In this document: positions 16,401 to 44,035 of the stretch, piece by piece
How the letters are laid out: every line of letters begins with the position of its first letter
Position numbering within the stretch: the stretch's first letter is position 1
Assembly (NCBI GenBank): GCA_012518115.1
Contig: JAAYTD010000014.1
Span: forward strand, 1-64,000
Source: Ignavibacteria bacterium
GTDB lineage: Bacteria; Bacteroidota; Ignavibacteria; Kapaibacteriales; UBA2268
Direction of reading: 5' to 3'
Length of the DNA stretch: 64,000 bases
Made by a program: the position numbers and the translations under genes
The notes under the pieces: model-generated
Seen by the model: the letters and a program-made list of their open reading frames with translations, nothing else
What the model was told of the DNA's origin: nothing
Database searches by the model: none

Positions 16401-19400
16401 ATGAAAATACATTCTATTAATAAGAGTACAAGATATTTTCTAGCATTAGCTATAGCTTTATTTGTTGTATTAAGTTTTTCTACACTTTTAGCACAAAATA
16501 AAGCAGCTTATATGATACCTGATATAGGTGCTCCCGGAATGAATGTTTATGTAGAAATTATAGCTCATGTTGATTCACTAGGTGCATTCGGTTCCGATGA
16601 ATTATCTTACAATAATGCGTCAGATAAATTCAGGTTGCAACCAGTTTCGCTTCAAGATAGAGAAAAAATTATTTTTGGTCCTTTGGTAATTTCTTGGGAT
16701 GGTCGTTTGATTTCTTCACAAGCTTTTATCAATCCAAGTCTTAAGCCTACCAGTTGGAAATGGGACGAAGGAATTAGAATTCCTATCGGATTATATGAAG
16801 ACAATACGCTTATCAATTCCTTTGATTTTTATATAGTTAACCCGTTCCATTTAGGTGATATTAGTAATCAAACTTTACCTACTGAGAAATGGGGTGGCGA
16901 AGATGTAATAAAACTTGGCAAAGAGCCATTTGGTATGCGTTCTCCACGTGGTGCTATGCTTGTAGATAGCTTAATAATGGCTGATAATATGCGTTATGTA
17001 GTTTCTACGGAAGATTGCGACTTAAATACGCCGGGTAATCAAGGTTATTTACCTTTTACTCTTCTTTCTTTAGGTGATGTTCGCGGTGGAGAAAATACTA
17101 CAATTTCTGTTGATGGTTTAATGCAATTCGGTGGCGCTGGTGGCGGTGGCGGTGGCGGTGCTTTTTGTGATAAGGGGCTTGGTGATGATTTGTCTGAAAG
17201 CTCACAAAAAGGTGGTGATGGTTTTACAGGTGGTGGTATTGGCGGTGTAAATGGCAGTAATGTAATACCAAACTATTATTCTAACTTAGGCGGTGGTATT
17301 GGTTCCGGTAGTGATGATAATAGTTCGCTACTATCTTATGCAGGTTATAGTTTGAATGGAGTGAAAGGTGCAGATAAAGCAGGATATGAAGCTAGTGGCG
17401 GAGGAACCGGGCATCCGTTCGGACGTTCAGGACATGGTAGCTGGAATGACGACAGACAAGGTGAATATGGTGGTGGAAGTGGTAAAAAACAACGAGATCG
17501 TGGAGGAACAGGAGCATATTCAACGCGTGGCAATGCATCAGCAATAAATGATGGAAATATACACGGGAACAGGATGCTTATGCCTTTGGCAGGCGGTAGC
17601 GGTGGTGGAAGTGGAAATCCAAAAATAGTTATACAAACAGGTTGTGCTGGATATGGTGGCGGTGCTGGTGGCGGTATAGCTATTTTTTCATACTTAAACA
17701 ATAAAGATTATAATGTGTCGGCGCGTGGTGCTAACGGAGCAAACTATACTAATAATGCTGGTGGTGTTGGCGGAAGCGGTAGTGGCGGCGGAGTGTTAAT
17801 TACTTCTAAGTTGAATACAAATATAGGTGTTATTAATGTCAATGGTGGAAATTTTGGAAATGATTCTGCTGGTGCTGGATATATCAGAATAGATGCACTG
17901 GAGCTCCCAACAGCAGCTCCTTCACGTGAAAATTTTGTTGGACTAGCTATTGATACTTCTTCGCATGTTGGAAAAACAAAAAAAATTACTTTAACAGGTT
18001 ATGGAAAATGTGAATTATTTATTAGAAATGAAAGAAGCGAGTGGAGAAATATAACAACCACATATGAAGACAACTGGATGTATGAAATAACAGATGATGT
18101 TTTCAAATATGAAGGCGATACTCTATTTTATGTAGTAGCGCTACAGCCTACACCGAATAGAAAATCTGTAGATCCTTATGAAAATGAACCTTTCTATATT
18201 ATGTCGCAAGCAGCAGCTAATATATTGAAAGTAGAAAAAACGCCTTATATCGTAAAAAATCAAGATTTAGAACTGAAAAAGACAACAATCAATTGTCCGG
18301 GTGCAGAAGTAAAGTTTGATGTGCAAAAAGTAATAAATATAGGAGATGCTGATTTAATTTTTTGGAAAGATAAGTTCAGCAGCTCGTTACCTTGGGGAAA
18401 GATTTCTATTACGGGTGATGAAATTACAACTGATAATAACGGTAACTATATAGTTGAAGCACAATTAGATAAAACGCAAGATACAATATTCGCTACAATT
18501 ACAATTTCATATACTATTCCGCCAAATTTGGCAGATGGAACATATTACGATACATTAAAATTATGGCATAATGATTCGTTGCGGGTAAATCCTTGGGTAA
18601 TTTCTGTAGAATTAGAAATTCAGAATATAGACACAAAAAATTTAGATGAAGCTTCTAAAGAAATTTCAGAAATTGATTTAGGAGAATTTTGTGTAAATTC
18701 AACTCCTGATTCATCTGTTCCATTTTTTGTGAAAAACGTAAGTGAAACAACTATTACTCTTAACGATTTCTTGGTAGAAGATAATTCTATTGATGTTGAA
18801 ATAGTGGGCGATAAAATACTAGCGCCTGAAGATTCGGTGCAAGTTGTTGTAAAACTTAAAGCTGCAAATAAAGAAGCAGGAAAATATACAACTAACATTA
18901 TAAAAAAATATGTTGAATGTGAAAGTTATGCTGATACTATTAAAGTAATATATACGCTTATTGAAACAGAACTTGAATTTACAAAACAAGAACTGATTTT
19001 TGATAAAGTAAGAATAGGATCTGATAGCTTAGCTAATGTAAGTTTAATCAATAAAAGTAATTATAATATAATACTTAGAGAAGAATTTATCTCACTATAT
19101 GAGGGTGTAAATTATAAAATACATTCTGTTACGCCAAGTTTACCTGTTGTGCTTAAACCAGACGATAAAGTTGATATTACAATCAAATTTGCTCCTAAAG
19201 AAGAAGGGGAACTTTTAGATACACTTTTAGTAATAATTCCTAATGCTGCCAATACTTGTGAAGGCGAAGCAGCTTTACCTATTCGTGGAACAGGAACTAC
19301 TTTTTCACTTTATGCTGAAGATCTTAATTTTGGAATTACAGACTGTAAAACTATTATTGATAGTGTTTGGGTTGTCAATAGAAAAAGTGCTTCTTCGCAA

Positions 19401-21287
19401 AATGTTCATCTTATCACTCCTGCGAGAATAGAAGAAGATATAGCCGGAACATTTAAGATTTTGGAAGAACCTAAGGCAACGACAATTTTAGCACCCGGCG
19501 ATTCCGTTTTATATGTGATTTCGGCAGAAGTTACGGAACAAAATACAGGACAAGTGATAAACGGTACTTTGTTTGTACATAATGATTCTTTGAAAATAAA
19601 CCTAACATTTGAAGTTGATAGTAAAGAAATTGAAGTATTAGAAACTCCTGTTGATTTCGGTAGTATCGCACTTGGTAGCGAAGCTACTAAAACTGTAACA
19701 GTGAAGAATTTAGGGAAGTTAGATAAAAACGTTATTGACATAAAATTTACGAATAAACAAGTAGATTATGTTTTTACTCCTAAAACTTTCGTTGTTCCTG
19801 CTAAAGGTGAATCTGTATTTGAAGTAAAAGCTACACCGAAATTAGATAGTGAAGCTAGCTCGTTTTTAGATACTTTTGAATTGATAACAGATTGTTATAA
19901 GTATCAATATACTTTAGAGGGTGAAATAATTTCAGCTAAAATAGAAAATAAACTTGTTGATTTTGATACTAGCTCTGTTTGTGATGAAACTACAAAAACT
20001 GCGGTTTTGAAAAATATTGGACAGACGCAAATAGAAGTTTTAGAAGTTGTAGGAATTGACGGTAAAGATAGAGCTTTCTTTGAATTGAAAACACATGAAA
20101 CACTTAAAAAAGTATTAAATGAAGATGAAGAATTTACTGCTGAAATTATTTTCCGTCCTAAAGGAGCTACACGTGGTGAAAAAAATGCGAAGCTTGTACT
20201 TAAAATTTTAGCTGACGGGAAAGAACAATTGGTTTCAATTCCACTTAAGGGCTTTGTAAAACTTGGATTATTAGCAACACCTTCTTTGAAAGATTTTGGT
20301 AATATATTTGTTGGAAATCAAAAAATCGATAAAGTTGTTCTTGACAATATAGGTGATTATCCGCTGAAAATAAATAACATTTTTATACAAAAATCTATTG
20401 ATTTTAATATAGCTAGTAATATATTAGAAGTATTACAAGTTAATGATAAATTTGAAGTTAGTATTATTTTTACAGGGCTGACACTTGGTGAAAAAAACGA
20501 TACTTTGTTAGTTGATTTCGTTTATGATGCAGATTGTAGAGATACAATGAAAATTCCTTTGCGTGGTAATGTTGTGCCAAGCAATGAAATAACTATAAGT
20601 GTAACGCAACATAATGAAGTCAATCCTCGCACAAAGGATTATAGAATTCCTGTGCTAATAAAAACTTCGCCTAATCCTTTAGGAAACTTTGTTGTTAAGG
20701 AAATTACTTTAGAGCATAACAGAAAATTATTCTATCCTAAGTCTGTTACAAGTGGTAACATTACAATAAGTACAGCGGAAAATGATATAGAAAAACGTAT
20801 CACGCATATAAAAAATATCGAAGTTAAAAACTTATTATCTGATACTGAAACTGTACTTTTTGAAATTATAGGAGACGTACTTTTAGGAGATAGAGATTCA
20901 ACGGAAATAAAAATTGTAGATGTGGTTTTTGAAGATAATTTAGCAGTTAGTAATGTGAAAAAGAATAACGGATATCTTACTATTTCTACTTGCCAAAAAA
21001 GATTGTTAAATTATTATAATAGTGTTTCAACTACTATTTTTAATAATCCTTTGATCAATTCTACATTAGAAGCTGAAGTTAGAACAGTAGAATTAGGAAA
21101 GCATAGTTTAGAAATTTCTAATTATCTTGGTCAAAGAGTAACTCTCAAAGAATGGGAAGTTACACGAGAGGATAATAAATCGTTTGTTTTTAAAGCATAT
21201 TTAGACAGTTATCCTACAGGAAATTACATGTTGATTTTAAATACTCCGACTGCAATACATACTCAAAGCTTTATTTTGTTAAAGTAG
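16401..21287 (+). CDS. Giant surface protein: glycine-rich region plus choice-of-anchor/ASH-like repeats, likely T9SS cargo
   Basis: The 1628-residue product has a signal peptide (residues 10-32, ending STLLAQ). Residues about 225-495 are extremely rich in Gly with Ser and Asn, including a run of seven consecutive glycines near 247 and many GGGSG/GGGTG motifs. From about 600 to 1480 there are repeated segments of roughly 100-110 residues with a choice-of-anchor D/ASPM-SPD2-Hydin flavour, such as KQELIFDKVRIGSDSLANVS, TPVDFGSIALGSEATKTVTV and PSLKDFGNIFVGNQ. The C-terminal 75 residues (LEISNYLGQRVTLKEWEV, ending YPTGNYMLILNTPTAIHTQ) resemble a diverged T9SS sorting domain. It probably acts as a long adhesive or structural surface protein; no catalytic motif is seen. 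Confidence 0.8.
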   Translation: MKIHSINKSTRYFLALAIALFVVLSFSTLLAQNKAAYMIPDIGAPGMNVYVEIIAHVDSLGAFGSDELSYNNASDKFRLQPVSLQDREKIIFGPLVISWDGRLISSQAFINPSLKPTSWKWDEGIRIPIGLYEDNTLINSFDFYIVNPFHLGDISNQTLPTEKWGGEDVIKLGKEPFGMRSPRGAMLVDSLIMADNMRYVVSTEDCDLNTPGNQGYLPFTLLSLGDVRGGENTTISVDGLMQFGGAGGGGGGGAFCDKGLGDDLSESSQKGGDGFTGGGIGGVNGSNVIPNYYSNLGGGIGSGSDDNSSLLSYAGYSLNGVKGADKAGYEASGGGTGHPFGRSGHGSWNDDRQGEYGGGSGKKQRDRGGTGAYSTRGNASAINDGNIHGNRMLMPLAGGSGGGSGNPKIVIQTGCAGYGGGAGGGIAIFSYLNNKDYNVSARGANGANYTNNAGGVGGSGSGGGVLITSKLNTNIGVINVNGGNFGNDSAGAGYIRIDALELPTAAPSRENFVGLAIDTSSHVGKTKKITLTGYGKCELFIRNERSEWRNITTTYEDNWMYEITDDVFKYEGDTLFYVVALQPTPNRKSVDPYENEPFYIMSQAAANILKVEKTPYIVKNQDLELKKTTINCPGAEVKFDVQKVINIGDADLIFWKDKFSSSLPWGKISITGDEITTDNNGNYIVEAQLDKTQDTIFATITISYTIPPNLADGTYYDTLKLWHNDSLRVNPWVISVELEIQNIDTKNLDEASKEISEIDLGEFCVNSTPDSSVPFFVKNVSETTITLNDFLVEDNSIDVEIVGDKILAPEDSVQVVVKLKAANKEAGKYTTNIIKKYVECESYADTIKVIYTLIETELEFTKQELIFDKVRIGSDSLANVSLINKSNYNIILREEFISLYEGVNYKIHSVTPSLPVVLKPDDKVDITIKFAPKEEGELLDTLLVIIPNAANTCEGEAALPIRGTGTTFSLYAEDLNFGITDCKTIIDSVWVVNRKSASSQNVHLITPARIEEDIAGTFKILEEPKATTILAPGDSVLYVISAEVTEQNTGQVINGTLFVHNDSLKINLTFEVDSKEIEVLETPVDFGSIALGSEATKTVTVKNLGKLDKNVIDIKFTNKQVDYVFTPKTFVVPAKGESVFEVKATPKLDSEASSFLDTFELITDCYKYQYTLEGEIISAKIENKLVDFDTSSVCDETTKTAVLKNIGQTQIEVLEVVGIDGKDRAFFELKTHETLKKVLNEDEEFTAEIIFRPKGATRGEKNAKLVLKILADGKEQLVSIPLKGFVKLGLLATPSLKDFGNIFVGNQKIDKVVLDNIGDYPLKINNIFIQKSIDFNIASNILEVLQVNDKFEVSIIFTGLTLGEKNDTLLVDFVYDADCRDTMKIPLRGNVVPSNEITISVTQHNEVNPRTKDYRIPVLIKTSPNPLGNFVVKEITLEHNRKLFYPKSVTSGNITISTAENDIEKRITHIKNIEVKNLLSDTETVLFEIIGDVLLGDRDSTEIKIVDVVFEDNLAVSNVKKNNGYLTISTCQKRLLNYYNSVSTTIFNNPLINSTLEAEVRTVELGKHSLEISNYLGQRVTLKEWEVTREDNKSFVFKAYLDSYPTGNYMLILNTPTAIHTQSFILLK

Positions 21288-30359: not shown

Positions 30360-33224
30360 ATGAAAAAAAACATCTATTACATTTTATCATTATTATTAAT
30401 ATCCTTATTTTCAACTTATAATATATATGCTCAAAAATGGGTGAGCAAAAAAGTTGAAAAAAAGAATGTAATTTTAGAAGAATTTACCGGAATAAATTGT
30501 GGTTACTGTCCTGAAGGTCATAAAATTGCAAATGGTCTTACTGCAAGTAATCCCGGTAAAGTATTTTTAGTTAATGTACATGCTGGTTATTACGCGACAC
30601 CTGGTGCAGGGCAAATAGATTTACGTACGCCAGATGGCAATGCAATTGCACAAGCTATGCAAGTAACGTCTTTTCCTTCGGCTGCTGTAAATCGTGAATT
30701 TATAGACCAAAATACTTGGCTTTTTTCCAGGAATGTATGGGCGCAGCTTGCTGGTTTAATAATAAAGGACGACTCGCCGGTAAATATTGCTACAAGAGCA
30801 CGTATTAATCCTGCAACTCGTAAATTAACGGTAGAAGTAGAATTATATTATACAAGTACTGTAAATGCATATAATTTTATTACTGTTATGCTTACGCAAA
30901 ATAATATTTTGGGATCTCAAGCAGGAGCTAATACTTATCCTGAAAATATAAAAGATGGAAAGTATATTCATAATCATGTCTTGCGTAAAATTATTTCTAA
31001 TAACGGTTTCAAGGGTGATCCTGTTGAGCAAACAGAAGCAGGAAACTATGTGTACCGTAAGTATGAATGGAACTTGCCTGATAAAATCCAAAACATACCT
31101 GTAGTTATTGAAGATCTAAATGTTGTAGCTCATATTACCTCAGCGATAGGTTTGACATCGGGAATACCTCTGCGTGTATATAATGTTGCAGGAAGCAAAG
31201 TTTCAACTTCTTTTGCTGAGGAGAACGAGAAACTTATTTTGGTTGAAAAGTTTACAAATGCTAATTCTGATGAGTGTGCAAAATTAAATATAGAAGAAGG
31301 AGTTATAGATTATTTACAAGATAATACAAAAAAAATAGTTACTGTTGAATATCACTCTGCTGAACCAAAAGGAGATCCAATGTATGACTTTGATAATTCG
31401 TTTTCGTATCAACGTGGAGTGAATTATTATGGTGCTAAAACAGTTCCGGCAATGCTTGTTGACGGTAAAAAAGTTGAGAAAAACAATAAAGCGACTTTAG
31501 AAAATATGATTTCTATGGCTGCTAACTCTTCATACTTAAGTATAGAACCAAGGTTTAATATTAGTAACGGAAAAATAAAGGTAGATGTGGATGTGAACTC
31601 CGAAGTACAACTGACAAATTTAGCTTTGCGTGTTGTAGTATTGGAAGCAGCCGTATTTTATCCTGAATCACCGGGCACAAGTTCTGAAAAAGAATTCTAT
31701 TTTGTGGCACGCCATATGTTGCCAGATGCAACAGGTACAAAATTTGGTATAGAAGAAAAAGGTACTAGAAAGTTTTCACTTGAAAAAGAACTTGATTTAG
31801 AAAAACTTGATAAAAACAAAATTTATGTAGCTGTTTTTGTTCAAGATGAAAAAAATAAAGAGGTGCTTCAAACAGCTATAACCAGAAATCTTGAATTTTT
31901 AACTATAAATGTTGAAACAACAGATAACTTATATTCAGTAGTTTCTCCTAAGGCTGAAAAAACACACGCATTTAGTGTGGAAAATTCTTCAAACGTGCCT
32001 GTTGAAATCAGTTTGAGACCAATTGACGCTAAAGAGGACTGGCAATATTCTATGCCTATTCCACAAACTTCAGAATTAACTGCTAATACAAAAAAAACTT
32101 ACAGTTTTAAGACTAAGTACACGGGCGATAAAGCAAGTGCATTTCAAAGTGGATATGAAATTGAAGTCATAGGTTGTACAACTAATAAGAATTTTGAGCC
32201 GGGAATAGTTGTTTATCCACCAGTGAAAAAAGTAGATTTTGTTGATATTACAGATAAAACGAAAGCAGTTTATATTTATGGAAAAGGAATAAGTAGTGAA
32301 AACTCTTCTTCTGCCAATATAGCAGCTTTTGAAAAAGTAAATTTGTTGAGAGATAGGTTAGCAGCGGTACCTTTTATTGGTGATGAATTATTCAAAACAA
32401 AAGTTTTAGATGATTTTGAGTTTGTTGGAATGACTGTTGATGAAGAAAACAAAGAAAACTTCATGCATAATGCTAAACCTGCATTAGAGAAAATGAGCTC
32501 ACTTGTAGCAGCAGATAAAAAAGTATATTTTTCTGCTACGAAACAAAATGAGGTAGTAGCAAATAATAAAGCTCAATTTCCTGTTGAAACAAAAGCTATT
32601 ACAGATTTTTACGGAAATTTATTTGGTGTAGCTATTAAAAACAATGTTAAAACTTCAGCTATGACAGCTATTAATTTGTTCTCTAAGTGGCCTGCAATTG
32701 AAAGTTTTAATGAAAAATCCAATACAGATGTTTTTGAATTAAAGAAGAATACTATAAAGTCAATTTATGAATTGCAAGACAAGTCAATAGTTGCTGTTGC
32801 TGCAGATAATCCTTATGATGATACAAAAAATAGATGCATTTTATTTGGATTTGATTTAGCTGCAATTTCAGAAGATGCAAAACGAAACGAAGTTGCAAGT
32901 AATATCGTTAAATGGCTATACAATGATGATGGATCTGTAGAAGAATTATATAACGGAACAGATGGCTTAAAATTAGAAGCGCATGAAAATCCGATTGTAG
33001 AAAATTTTACAGTTAAAGCTATTAATCAAGGTAAAATGGATGTTGAAGCTGATATATATATTATTGATATTTCAGGCAAAAAAATCAAAACGATATTTAG
33101 TGGCAAGCTAGCTACAGGTGATAATTATTTTACTGTAAATATTGAAAATATAGCTATCGGTCAATATATCATTGTTGCTGAAACTGCATTAGGAAAAGCT
33201 TTTATGCAGATTGTAAAAAAATAA
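30360..33224 (+). CDS. Omp28-like thioredoxin-fold surface protein with T9SS sorting domain
   Basis: The 954-residue protein has a signal peptide (residues 5-25, ending NIYAQ). Residues about 35-300 match the Omp28 family, with a thioredoxin-like fold: VILEEFTGINCGYCPEGHKI holds a CxxC pair, followed by VFLVNVHAGYYATPG and QAMQVTSFPSAAVNRE. A second, related module follows (about 295-520: LVEKFTNANSDECAKLNIEE, then FSYQRGVNYYGAKTVPAMLV), in which the CxxC is lost. The C-terminal 80 residues form a T9SS sorting domain (EADIYIIDISGKKIKTIFSG, ending with a YIIVAETALGKAF strand). It should be exported to the cell surface. An active redox role for the first module is possible but unproven. Confidence 0.85.
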   Translation: MKKNIYYILSLLLISLFSTYNIYAQKWVSKKVEKKNVILEEFTGINCGYCPEGHKIANGLTASNPGKVFLVNVHAGYYATPGAGQIDLRTPDGNAIAQAMQVTSFPSAAVNREFIDQNTWLFSRNVWAQLAGLIIKDDSPVNIATRARINPATRKLTVEVELYYTSTVNAYNFITVMLTQNNILGSQAGANTYPENIKDGKYIHNHVLRKIISNNGFKGDPVEQTEAGNYVYRKYEWNLPDKIQNIPVVIEDLNVVAHITSAIGLTSGIPLRVYNVAGSKVSTSFAEENEKLILVEKFTNANSDECAKLNIEEGVIDYLQDNTKKIVTVEYHSAEPKGDPMYDFDNSFSYQRGVNYYGAKTVPAMLVDGKKVEKNNKATLENMISMAANSSYLSIEPRFNISNGKIKVDVDVNSEVQLTNLALRVVVLEAAVFYPESPGTSSEKEFYFVARHMLPDATGTKFGIEEKGTRKFSLEKELDLEKLDKNKIYVAVFVQDEKNKEVLQTAITRNLEFLTINVETTDNLYSVVSPKAEKTHAFSVENSSNVPVEISLRPIDAKEDWQYSMPIPQTSELTANTKKTYSFKTKYTGDKASAFQSGYEIEVIGCTTNKNFEPGIVVYPPVKKVDFVDITDKTKAVYIYGKGISSENSSSANIAAFEKVNLLRDRLAAVPFIGDELFKTKVLDDFEFVGMTVDEENKENFMHNAKPALEKMSSLVAADKKVYFSATKQNEVVANNKAQFPVETKAITDFYGNLFGVAIKNNVKTSAMTAINLFSKWPAIESFNEKSNTDVFELKKNTIKSIYELQDKSIVAVAADNPYDDTKNRCILFGFDLAAISEDAKRNEVASNIVKWLYNDDGSVEELYNGTDGLKLEAHENPIVENFTVKAINQGKMDVEADIYIIDISGKKIKTIFSGKLATGDNYFTVNIENIAIGQYIIVAETALGKAFMQIVKK

Positions 33225-41963: not shown

Positions 41964-42806
41964 TTAAAAATTAATTTCTTCTAAAAACAAAATACGCTCT
42001 AAACCATATATATCTTTGATAATATTTGGCTTGGCAACATTTGTAAATATTTTCTGTATTTCATCTTTTAATGTTGTTTCAATTTCTAAAAATATACTTC
42101 CTTTGTTATTTAGTAATAAAGGAAGTTTTTTTTCAATTAATTTGTAAAAATAAAGTCCGTCCTCTCCATCTGTAATTGCATCTTTCGGTTCAAAAAAAAT
42201 TTCAGGTTCTAATTGCATATAGTTAACTAACGGTACATATGGGGGATTGCTTATTATTACATCAAACTTTGTTTTTGGTAAGTAGTTTTCTAAACTTTCT
42301 GCAACAAATTGTACATTTTCAATATGAAGTAAGTTCTTATTTTTGTTGGCAACTGAAATACTTTCTTTGCTTTTATCAATTCCTGTAACTTGTGAATTTG
42401 GTAAATTCTTAGCTATAGCTAGTGCTATGCAACCAGATCCAGTACCAATATCAAGAATAGTTTTGTTTTGTTTGTTTTTAATTTTTGAAAGAGTAAAATC
42501 AACTAATTCTTCTGTTTCTTGACGAGGAATTAAAACTTCATTTGTAATGAAGAGCTCCAGATCGTAAAATTGAACTTTTTCTTCAAGATATTGTAGCGGA
42601 ATTCTTTTTAATCTTTTAGCAACTAATTTATTAAATTCATCTATTTCTGAAGAAAGTAAGGATTTGTTTTTATTAATAAATAAATCAATAGATTTGCAAT
42701 TAAGCGCTTTACAAAGTAAAATTTTAGCATTTAATTCTGCAGATTCAATTCCTGCTTGAAGAAATTTTTGAGTGGTTTCTTTTAATATATCTTCTATCTT
42801 AGGCAT
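41964..42806 (-). CDS. prmC: Peptide chain release factor N5-glutamine methyltransferase
   Basis: PrmC methylates the Gln of the GGQ motif in release factors RF1 and RF2. The 280-residue protein has the N-terminal helical domain (LCKALNCKSIDLFINKNKSL) with RIPLQYLEEKVQFYDLELF, then VLIPRQETEELVDFTL, SAM-binding LDIGTGSGCIALAIAKNLP (about 117-135), and the substrate-binding NPPYVP (about 187-192). The gene starts within the last codons of the upstream degenerate ABC ATPase gene (8-nt overlap), so the two are translationally coupled. Confidence 0.95.
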   Translation of the reverse strand: MPKIEDILKETTQKFLQAGIESAELNAKILLCKALNCKSIDLFINKNKSLLSSEIDEFNKLVAKRLKRIPLQYLEEKVQFYDLELFITNEVLIPRQETEELVDFTLSKIKNKQNKTILDIGTGSGCIALAIAKNLPNSQVTGIDKSKESISVANKNKNLLHIENVQFVAESLENYLPKTKFDVIISNPPYVPLVNYMQLEPEIFFEPKDAITDGEDGLYFYKLIEKKLPLLLNNKGSIFLEIETTLKDEIQKIFTNVAKPNIIKDIYGLERILFLEEINF

Positions 42807-43896
42807 AAACTAAATCACCGGACATTATGCTCCAAGAAATATAAATTTCTTCCCCTACGTGATGGCTAGTTATTGGAGTAGTGTTAGAAGTTGATAAGAA
42901 AGTATAATTTAATTCTGAAATAACTATAAGCTTTCCATATTCTAATTCAACAAAATACTGTGTGTATTCTCCAACATAATCTTTTTGTACGATTTTTCCT
43001 TTTAATGAATTGTTTAGTGAGTTGGCGTCTTTTTCGTCGCTTAATATAATTCGTTCAGGACGTATTGCAAAAAATAATTCACGGTCTTTTTCTATTTCTT
43101 GATTTGTTTGCAGCTTGATTTTTACTTTGTCATCTAATAGAATAACATAATCTTCACCATGCACTTCAAGTATTTCAGCATAAAAGAAGTTAGTATTACT
43201 AATATAACTAGCTACAAAATATGTTCTTGGGTTTTCATATATAAATTCAGGGGTGGCACATTGATGAATAACACCATGTTGCATAATTGCCATTTTGTTA
43301 GATAGTGAAAAAGCATTTTCTATGCTATCAGTAATATAAATAAAAGTCTTATTTAATTTACTATGTAAACTTTTTAGTTCATAACGCATTTTTAATCTGT
43401 CTTTTCTATCTAAAAGTCTTAATGAATCGTCAAGTAAAAGTATTTTAGGATTGTTAATTAATGCGCGAGCTAAAGCAATTTTATATTTAGCTAAATTGTC
43501 AAGTTTACTTATGTTTTCTTTAGTATATTTTGAGAGCTCAAAAAATTCTATAGTGTCATTAACTAATCTGTATTTTTCAGACTTACTTATATTTTTATAG
43601 TTTAATCCGAATTCTATATTTTGGTATACATCGTAGTCGGGGAATAGTGCAAATGAACTGAAAATAGTATTAATATCACGTTTATATGCTTCTTGTTTTA
43701 CAAGATCTTCTCCGTCAAGCAAAATTTTACCGCTATCAGGTTTTTCAAGTCCAGCTATAATTCTCATAAGTGCTGTTTTACCAGAGCCACTTGGACCTAA
43801 AAAACAAAAAAAATCGCCATTTTCTATTTCAACATTTATTTTGTTTAAAACTATGCGTCTTCCGCTTTCTTTTGATAAATCTTGAATTTTCAGCAT
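42799..43896 (-). CDS. MalK/PotA-like ABC ATPase with degenerate catalytic motifs, no permease
   Basis: The 365-residue protein aligns over its length with sugar/polyamine importer ATPases, including a C-terminal TOBE-like domain (about 280-365, NSLKGKIVQKDYVGEYTQYF). Walker A is intact (GPSGSGKT, 34-41). The other motifs are altered: the Q-loop Gln is Ser80 (IFSSFALFP for VFQxYALFP), the LSGGQ signature is LDNLA (132-136), the Walker B Glu is Asp157 (ILLLDDS), and the switch His is Asp190 (YITDSIENAF for YVTHDQxEA). It may bind nucleotide but probably hydrolyses it poorly or not at all. No membrane or binding-protein gene is adjacent. It overlaps prmC by 8 nt and lies 66 nt beyond tRNA-Gln. 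Confidence 0.85.
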   Translation of the reverse strand: MLKIQDLSKESGRRIVLNKINVEIENGDFFCFLGPSGSGKTALMRIIAGLEKPDSGKILLDGEDLVKQEAYKRDINTIFSSFALFPDYDVYQNIEFGLNYKNISKSEKYRLVNDTIEFFELSKYTKENISKLDNLAKYKIALARALINNPKILLLDDSLRLLDRKDRLKMRYELKSLHSKLNKTFIYITDSIENAFSLSNKMAIMQHGVIHQCATPEFIYENPRTYFVASYISNTNFFYAEILEVHGEDYVILLDDKVKIKLQTNQEIEKDRELFFAIRPERIILSDEKDANSLNNSLKGKIVQKDYVGEYTQYFVELEYGKLIVISELNYTFLSTSNTTPITSHHVGEEIYISWSIMSGDLVYA

Positions 43897-43962
43897 ATTT
43901 TTAATGTGTTTTTTCTTGTAAAACTTCTTTAATATGTTTCATTAAAGGAGCTCTTTTATATG

Positions 43963-44035
43963 CTGCTCCATTAGGGTTCGAACCTAAACTTTTCTGATCC
44001 AGAGTCAGACGTGTTGCCAATTACACCATGGAGCA
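43963..44035 (-). tRNA. tRNA-Gln (anticodon CTG)
   Basis: The 73-nt minus-strand sequence folds as a cloverleaf: acceptor TGCTCCA paired with TGGAGCA, anticodon arm TCTGA-CTCTGGA-TCAGA giving anticodon CTG, and a T-arm with GGTTCGAACC. The discriminator base is G; the 3' CCA is not encoded. It starts 16 nt after the fabH stop in the same direction and may be processed from the fabH transcript. Confidence 0.93.

Follow-up and report, generated by a model that had tools for sequence, protein, structure and literature searches.

The locus described here raises the question of why a bacterium would retain the ATPase of an ABC transporter after most of its catalytic motifs have been replaced, in a gene directly upstream of the release factor methyltransferase gene prmC. 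The gene lies in a 64,000-nt stretch of an Ignavibacteria bacterium contig (JAAYTD010000014.1, assembly GCA_012518115.1), which we refer to as the window, and it forms an intact open reading frame from the ATG to the stop codon (Table 1). A preliminary description of the window took the product for a MalK-like pseudo-ATPase with a binding, regulatory or scaffolding role rather than one in transport. Here, we compare the window species (G000) with a sister species (G001), the only other genome of the genus examined. The degenerate ATPase of the window, which is of the PotA type, is designated PotA*, and a fused PotB-PotC permease encoded elsewhere in the genome is designated PotBC*.

Table 1. 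Location of PotA*, its altered motifs, its neighbours and the parts of a dispersed sugar importer. Positions are those of the window unless a contig of G000 is given.
Feature	Position	Strand	Basis or remark
PotA*, 365 aa	42799..43896	-	ORF, Pfam, NCBIfam, PDB, tree, fold match
A-loop position, codon 11 (aromatic F27 in E. coli PotA): Ser; sister Asn	43864..43866	-	Alignment; role of F27 from PMC11414716
Walker A GPSGSGKT, residues 34-41, intact	43774..43797	-	Inside the best-conserved stretch between the two species
Q-loop Gln, codon 80: Ser (sister Asn); SFALFP after it retained	43657..43659	-	Alignment
Signature LSGGQ, residues 132-136: LDNLA (sister LEPLI)	43489..43503	-	Alignment
Walker B LLLDD, residues 153-157: Mg-binding D156 retained, catalytic Glu replaced by D157	43426..43440	-	Alignment
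H-switch His, codon 190: Asp in both species	43327..43329	-	Alignment
TOBE_2 regulatory domain of PotA*	42832..43068	-	Pfam
prmC (release factor glutamine methyltransferase), directly downstream of PotA*	41964..42806	-	ORF, NCBIfam
tRNA-Gln(CTG), just upstream of PotA*	43962..44035	-	Same strand; absent from this position in the sister species
Sugar importer, binding protein (L166)	G000 C20:~19000-20100		Part of scattered sugar importer
Sugar importer, MalF-like (L089)	G000 C9:56763-57353		Part of scattered sugar importer
Sugar importer, MalG-like (L088)	G000 C41:20535-21050		Part of scattered sugar importer
Sugar importer, MsmX/UgpC-like canonical ATPase (L037)	G000 C81:105280-106365		Part of scattered sugar importer

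The assignment to MalK did not hold. In our tree, PotA* falls inside the PotA clade together with 15 canonical PotA proteins (100/100 support), the reference members of which lie next to potBC(D) genes, and it does not group with the MsmX/UgpC-type proteins found in its family. The best NCBIfam model is likewise PotA, yet the scores stay under the curated cut-offs (PRK09452.1, 293 bits against 482; TIGR01187, 270 against 356). Among solved structures in the PDB, E. coli PotA is the best relative by sequence (1.5e-64) and, as chain 8y5f_A, also the nearest fold to the predicted PotA* structure. This structure was predicted with AlphaFold2 for the window protein alone from a 5-sequence alignment; the nucleotide-binding domain is confident, whereas the C-terminal domain has a pLDDT < 50, so that the fold match is uninformative for that portion. 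A MalK identity was thus rejected by the tree, NCBIfam and the PDB sequence and fold matches. The C-terminus had been described as TOBE-like, and Pfam indeed assigns a TOBE_2 domain (37 bits) to it in addition to ABC_tran (85 bits).

The motif changes were all recovered as previously described (intact Walker A, S80, LDNLA, D157 and D190) when both PotA* proteins were aligned with 16 canonical PotA proteins of the phylum. They lie in the sequence contexts FSSFALFP for the Q-loop, LLLDDSL for Walker B and YITDSI for the switch, and are accompanied by the loss of the A-loop aromatic residue (S11), of the Thr directly following Walker A (A42) and of the Pro after Walker B (S158). Only Walker A and the Walker B Asp are kept of the full ATPase motif set; relative to E. 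coli PotA, the equivalents of the catalytic Glu, Ser149, Phe27 and His206 are all altered and that of D172 is retained. Of 91 columns that are >=93% identical in the canonical proteins, 50 are kept in both PotA* and 23 are lost in both, and since many of the lost columns carry the same new residue in the two proteins, they must have changed before the species split. Lineage-wide drift of ABC motifs was ruled out, as the relatives and all other ABC ATPases of the window genome with readable motifs are canonical.

The orthologue of the sister species (L017) is 54% identical to PotA* and also lies directly upstream of prmC. It carries N11, N80, LEPLI, D157 and D190 and therefore also lacks the A-loop aromatic residue, the Q-loop Gln and LSGGQ; residues common to both proteins are D157, D190, S158, A42, N194, Y138 and K139. 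The prmC gene is the sole conserved neighbour. Its overlap with PotA* was correctly reported as 8 nt in the window (ATGCCTAA, 42799-42806), but in the sister species a 4-nt gap separates them, and the overlap itself is thus not conserved. The window also encodes a 954-aa secreted protein (30360-33224; EEFTGINCGYCPEGH) that, judged by eye, resembles the N-terminus of a 716-aa protein encoded directly downstream of the sister prmC (L092:2717-4864; EHFTGIHCSGCTKGY). Between the two PotA* genes (amino acid identity 0.54, pN 0.29, pS 0.73), we obtained an omega of about 0.14, which is a rough value because dS is saturated; in the same species pair, omega is 0.39 for prmC, 0.25 for PotBC*, 0.17 for recF and 0.07 for leuS. 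The same lesions in an orthologue of only 54% identity, together with an omega below that of prmC, argue against decay, and the proposal that PotA* is maintained by purifying selection is therefore well supported, in agreement with the preliminary description. No degenerate orthologues beyond these two were found at the orthologue level in 123 genomes of the order and a 396-genome sample of the phylum, which otherwise contained canonical PotA only, and a search of named genomes with PotA* gave canonical ABC proteins that are no more than distantly related. Canonical potABC(D) loci, all with normal motifs, are present in other families of the class.

The preliminary description also stated that PotA* has no permease, and this is true for the contig but not for the genome. 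A search of the window genome with the BPD permease profile gave six matches, none of them on the PotA* contig. Two of the six are the halves of a single orphan chain, PotBC*, which is encoded beside recF and unlinked to PotA*; the halves have PotB and PotC as best matches in NCBIfam and the PDB, and each contains an EAA loop (EAAIDLG and ESAALDLG). The PotBC* protein of the sister species is also encoded beside recF and is 44-45% identical to that of the window species, so that both genomes encode a PotB-/PotC-type permease with EAA loops. Hence, a distant permease of the cognate type with matching EAA loops, which the preliminary description had named as evidence against its own reading, is present as far as can be judged from the sequences. 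PotBC* occurs in 2 of 54 genomes of the family, the same two that encode PotA*, and because both belong to one genus, this co-occurrence counts as one evolutionary event. The best-conserved 20-residue stretch between the species is Walker A in PotA* (residues 32-51, 95% against 54% overall) and the second EAA loop in PotBC* (80% against 44% overall), as would be expected if PotA* binds nucleotide and PotBC* docks on an ATPase.

Most of the residues that line the spermidine path or couple the permease to PotD in E. coli, among them the PotC scoop-loop residue K223 and the PotB gate residues Y223 and D226 (PMC11414716), are altered in the PotBC* of both species. At the PotC positions, K223 is replaced by Ser/Gln, Y219 by Val/Met and D198 by Asn, and at the PotB positions, D226 is replaced by Val/Leu and Y223 by Ser/Pro, where the residues in the first half of the sister protein were assigned by alignment to the window species. 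The acid at PotC D108 is retained (E410/D410). No PotD was found in either genome (drafts of 97% and 95% completeness) in an alignment search at E 0.1, the controls of which matched at 1e-103 and 1e-181. A wider SBP_bac_8 search gave one protein in each of the two genomes, which was not among the matches to the PotD alignment and, judged by its sequence alone, looks like a sugar-type binding protein.

The separation of PotA* and PotBC* on the map is weak evidence against a partnership, because a sugar-type ABC importer of the window genome is equally scattered, with each part standing alone beside unrelated genes on different contigs (Table 1); in the fragmented assembly of the sister genome, only two of its parts were recovered, the binding protein and the MalG-like one. 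Housekeeping genes are common neighbours here, as PotBC* lies by recF, the MalG-like gene by leuS and the MsmX-like gene by murG. Separate loci for potA-potB and for potC, the latter followed by a potD-like gene, are also present in another genus of the class (L147/L148 in G186 and L149/L150 in G165), which indicates that polyamine importer genes have been dispersed elsewhere with their canonical motifs kept. Within the class, a different family has potA and potB followed by a gene for a PotC-PotD fusion protein of about 630 aa (L146:4551-6443, G302).

We propose, with a probability of roughly 55%, that PotA* and PotBC* assemble into a degenerate PotABC complex, which binds nucleotide without hydrolysing it and has been repurposed as a nucleotide-gated or nucleotide-regulated membrane device. 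PotA* would be a PotA orthologue in which the ATPase motor has been dismantled, and from the co-retention of the two proteins and the conservation of the EAA loop in two species of one genus we infer that a PotA* homodimer most likely still docks on PotBC*. As the phosphate-binding loop and the Mg-binding Asp are retained, each subunit can probably still hold nucleotide. Closure of the ATP sandwich and hydrolysis would not be expected at normal rates, since the signature acting in trans, the adenine-stacking residue, the catalytic Glu, the Q-loop Gln and the switch His are all gone. The original binding-protein-dependent spermidine import cycle is no longer running, as no PotD was detected and the PotC loop residue that serves to empty PotD is changed. 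The retention of PotA* and PotBC* without PotD suggests that a transporter has been turned into a membrane device that is not run by ATP hydrolysis. Most simply, this device might be a PotBC-derived facilitator or channel, possibly gated or stabilised by the nucleotide on PotA*, which is the weakest step of the proposal.

Alternatively, PotA* could be a cytosolic scaffold or regulator without a membrane partner, tied to prmC or to translation. This was the view of the preliminary description, and we consider it unlikely. The conserved position next to prmC would fit such a role, as would the loss of several residues that sense the gamma-phosphate. However, housekeeping genes are frequent neighbours in this genome, and a role outside transport is undercut by the co-retained orphan PotB-PotC fusion, the EAA docking loop of which is its best-conserved segment. 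In addition, PotA* retains the post-Q-loop segment SFALFP, which borders the permease-docking cleft in MalK and PotA.

We regard it as improbable, too, that PotA* and PotBC* are a slow or unconventional active importer for a polyamine or another cation, with the help of a binding protein of unrecognised type or with none at all. Degenerate ABC proteins in which the Glu is replaced by Asp can still turn over slowly at such sites, and Walker A and the Walker B Asp are retained in PotA* under strong selection. The retained acid at PotC D108 and the single SBP_bac_8 protein of each genome also speak for this reading, but this protein is not PotD-like and the scoop-loop Lys is lost. The E. coli PotA variants F27A and S149A keep about half of the activity, whereas E173Q and D172A have only marginal ATPase activity left (PMC11414716), and in PotA* the Glu, His, Gln, signature and A-loop are altered all together.

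It is very unlikely that PotA* is a decaying pseudogene, or a reading frame retained solely to couple its translation to that of prmC, and decay can be regarded as already largely refuted. The stem shared by the two PotA* proteins is long, at 2.14 changes per site, as would be expected after relaxed selection, but the later branch of each species is shorter (0.40 and 0.71) and shared derived residues are fixed, which indicates a burst of change followed by constraint. Moreover, the gene is full length in both species, the proteins are still 54% identical although synonymous sites are saturated, and are more conserved than PrmC, and the 8-nt overlap is not conserved. Least probable of all is a heterodimer of PotA* and a canonical ATPase, for which the MsmX/UgpC-like protein of the window genome would be available. 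In asymmetric ABC transporters one composite site is canonical, and the degenerate site is made up of an NBD with Walker-side changes and an opposite NBD with an altered signature (PMC7756269). In PotA*, by contrast, a single chain carries both kinds of change, so that an intact site could not be completed by any partner. In the fragmented sister assembly no MsmX-like gene was found, PotA* being the best match there.

A degenerate PotABC complex would differ from known systems in several respects. PotA* shares its clade, the ABC_tran and TOBE_2 plan, about 35% identity, Walker A and the Mg-binding Asp with E. coli PotA, the ATPase of the PotD-PotABC spermidine importer (PDB 8y5f/8zx1; PMC11414716), but the A-loop aromatic residue, Q-loop Gln, LSGGQ, catalytic Glu and switch His are all replaced, it does not share an operon with a permease, and no PotD was found. 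PotBC* resembles PotB and PotC in the best matches of its halves and in having one EAA loop in each, but it is a fused chain of 580-594 aa, an orphan beside recF, in which several gate and spermidine-contact residues are altered and the scoop-loop Lys is lost. More tentatively, and with considerable doubt, one might speculate that PotA*-PotBC* is a complete importer core with two degenerate ATP sites, working as a nucleotide-gated channel or facilitator that needs neither hydrolysis nor a binding protein, and thus an importer-fold counterpart of CFTR. CFTR provides a precedent for an ABC protein working as a nucleotide-gated channel, but it has the fold of an exporter, and one of its sites is still hydrolytic. 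Our literature searches, which covered few subscription journals, brought up no ABC importer in which both sites are degenerate. The changes seen in PotA*, namely Glu to Asp, an altered His switch and an altered signature, are the usual ones at the degenerate sites of asymmetric ABC exporters such as TAP, MRP1, TM287/288 and Pdr5. These transporters tolerate one broken site and keep one canonical composite site, whereas a PotA* homodimer would have two degenerate ones. If our proposal is correct, an importer core with both sites broken and kept with its permease would mean that the membrane domains of ABC proteins can take on new roles in the absence of a hydrolytic motor, and PotA*-PotBC* would provide a natural and small system for what nucleotide binding alone does to an ABC importer.
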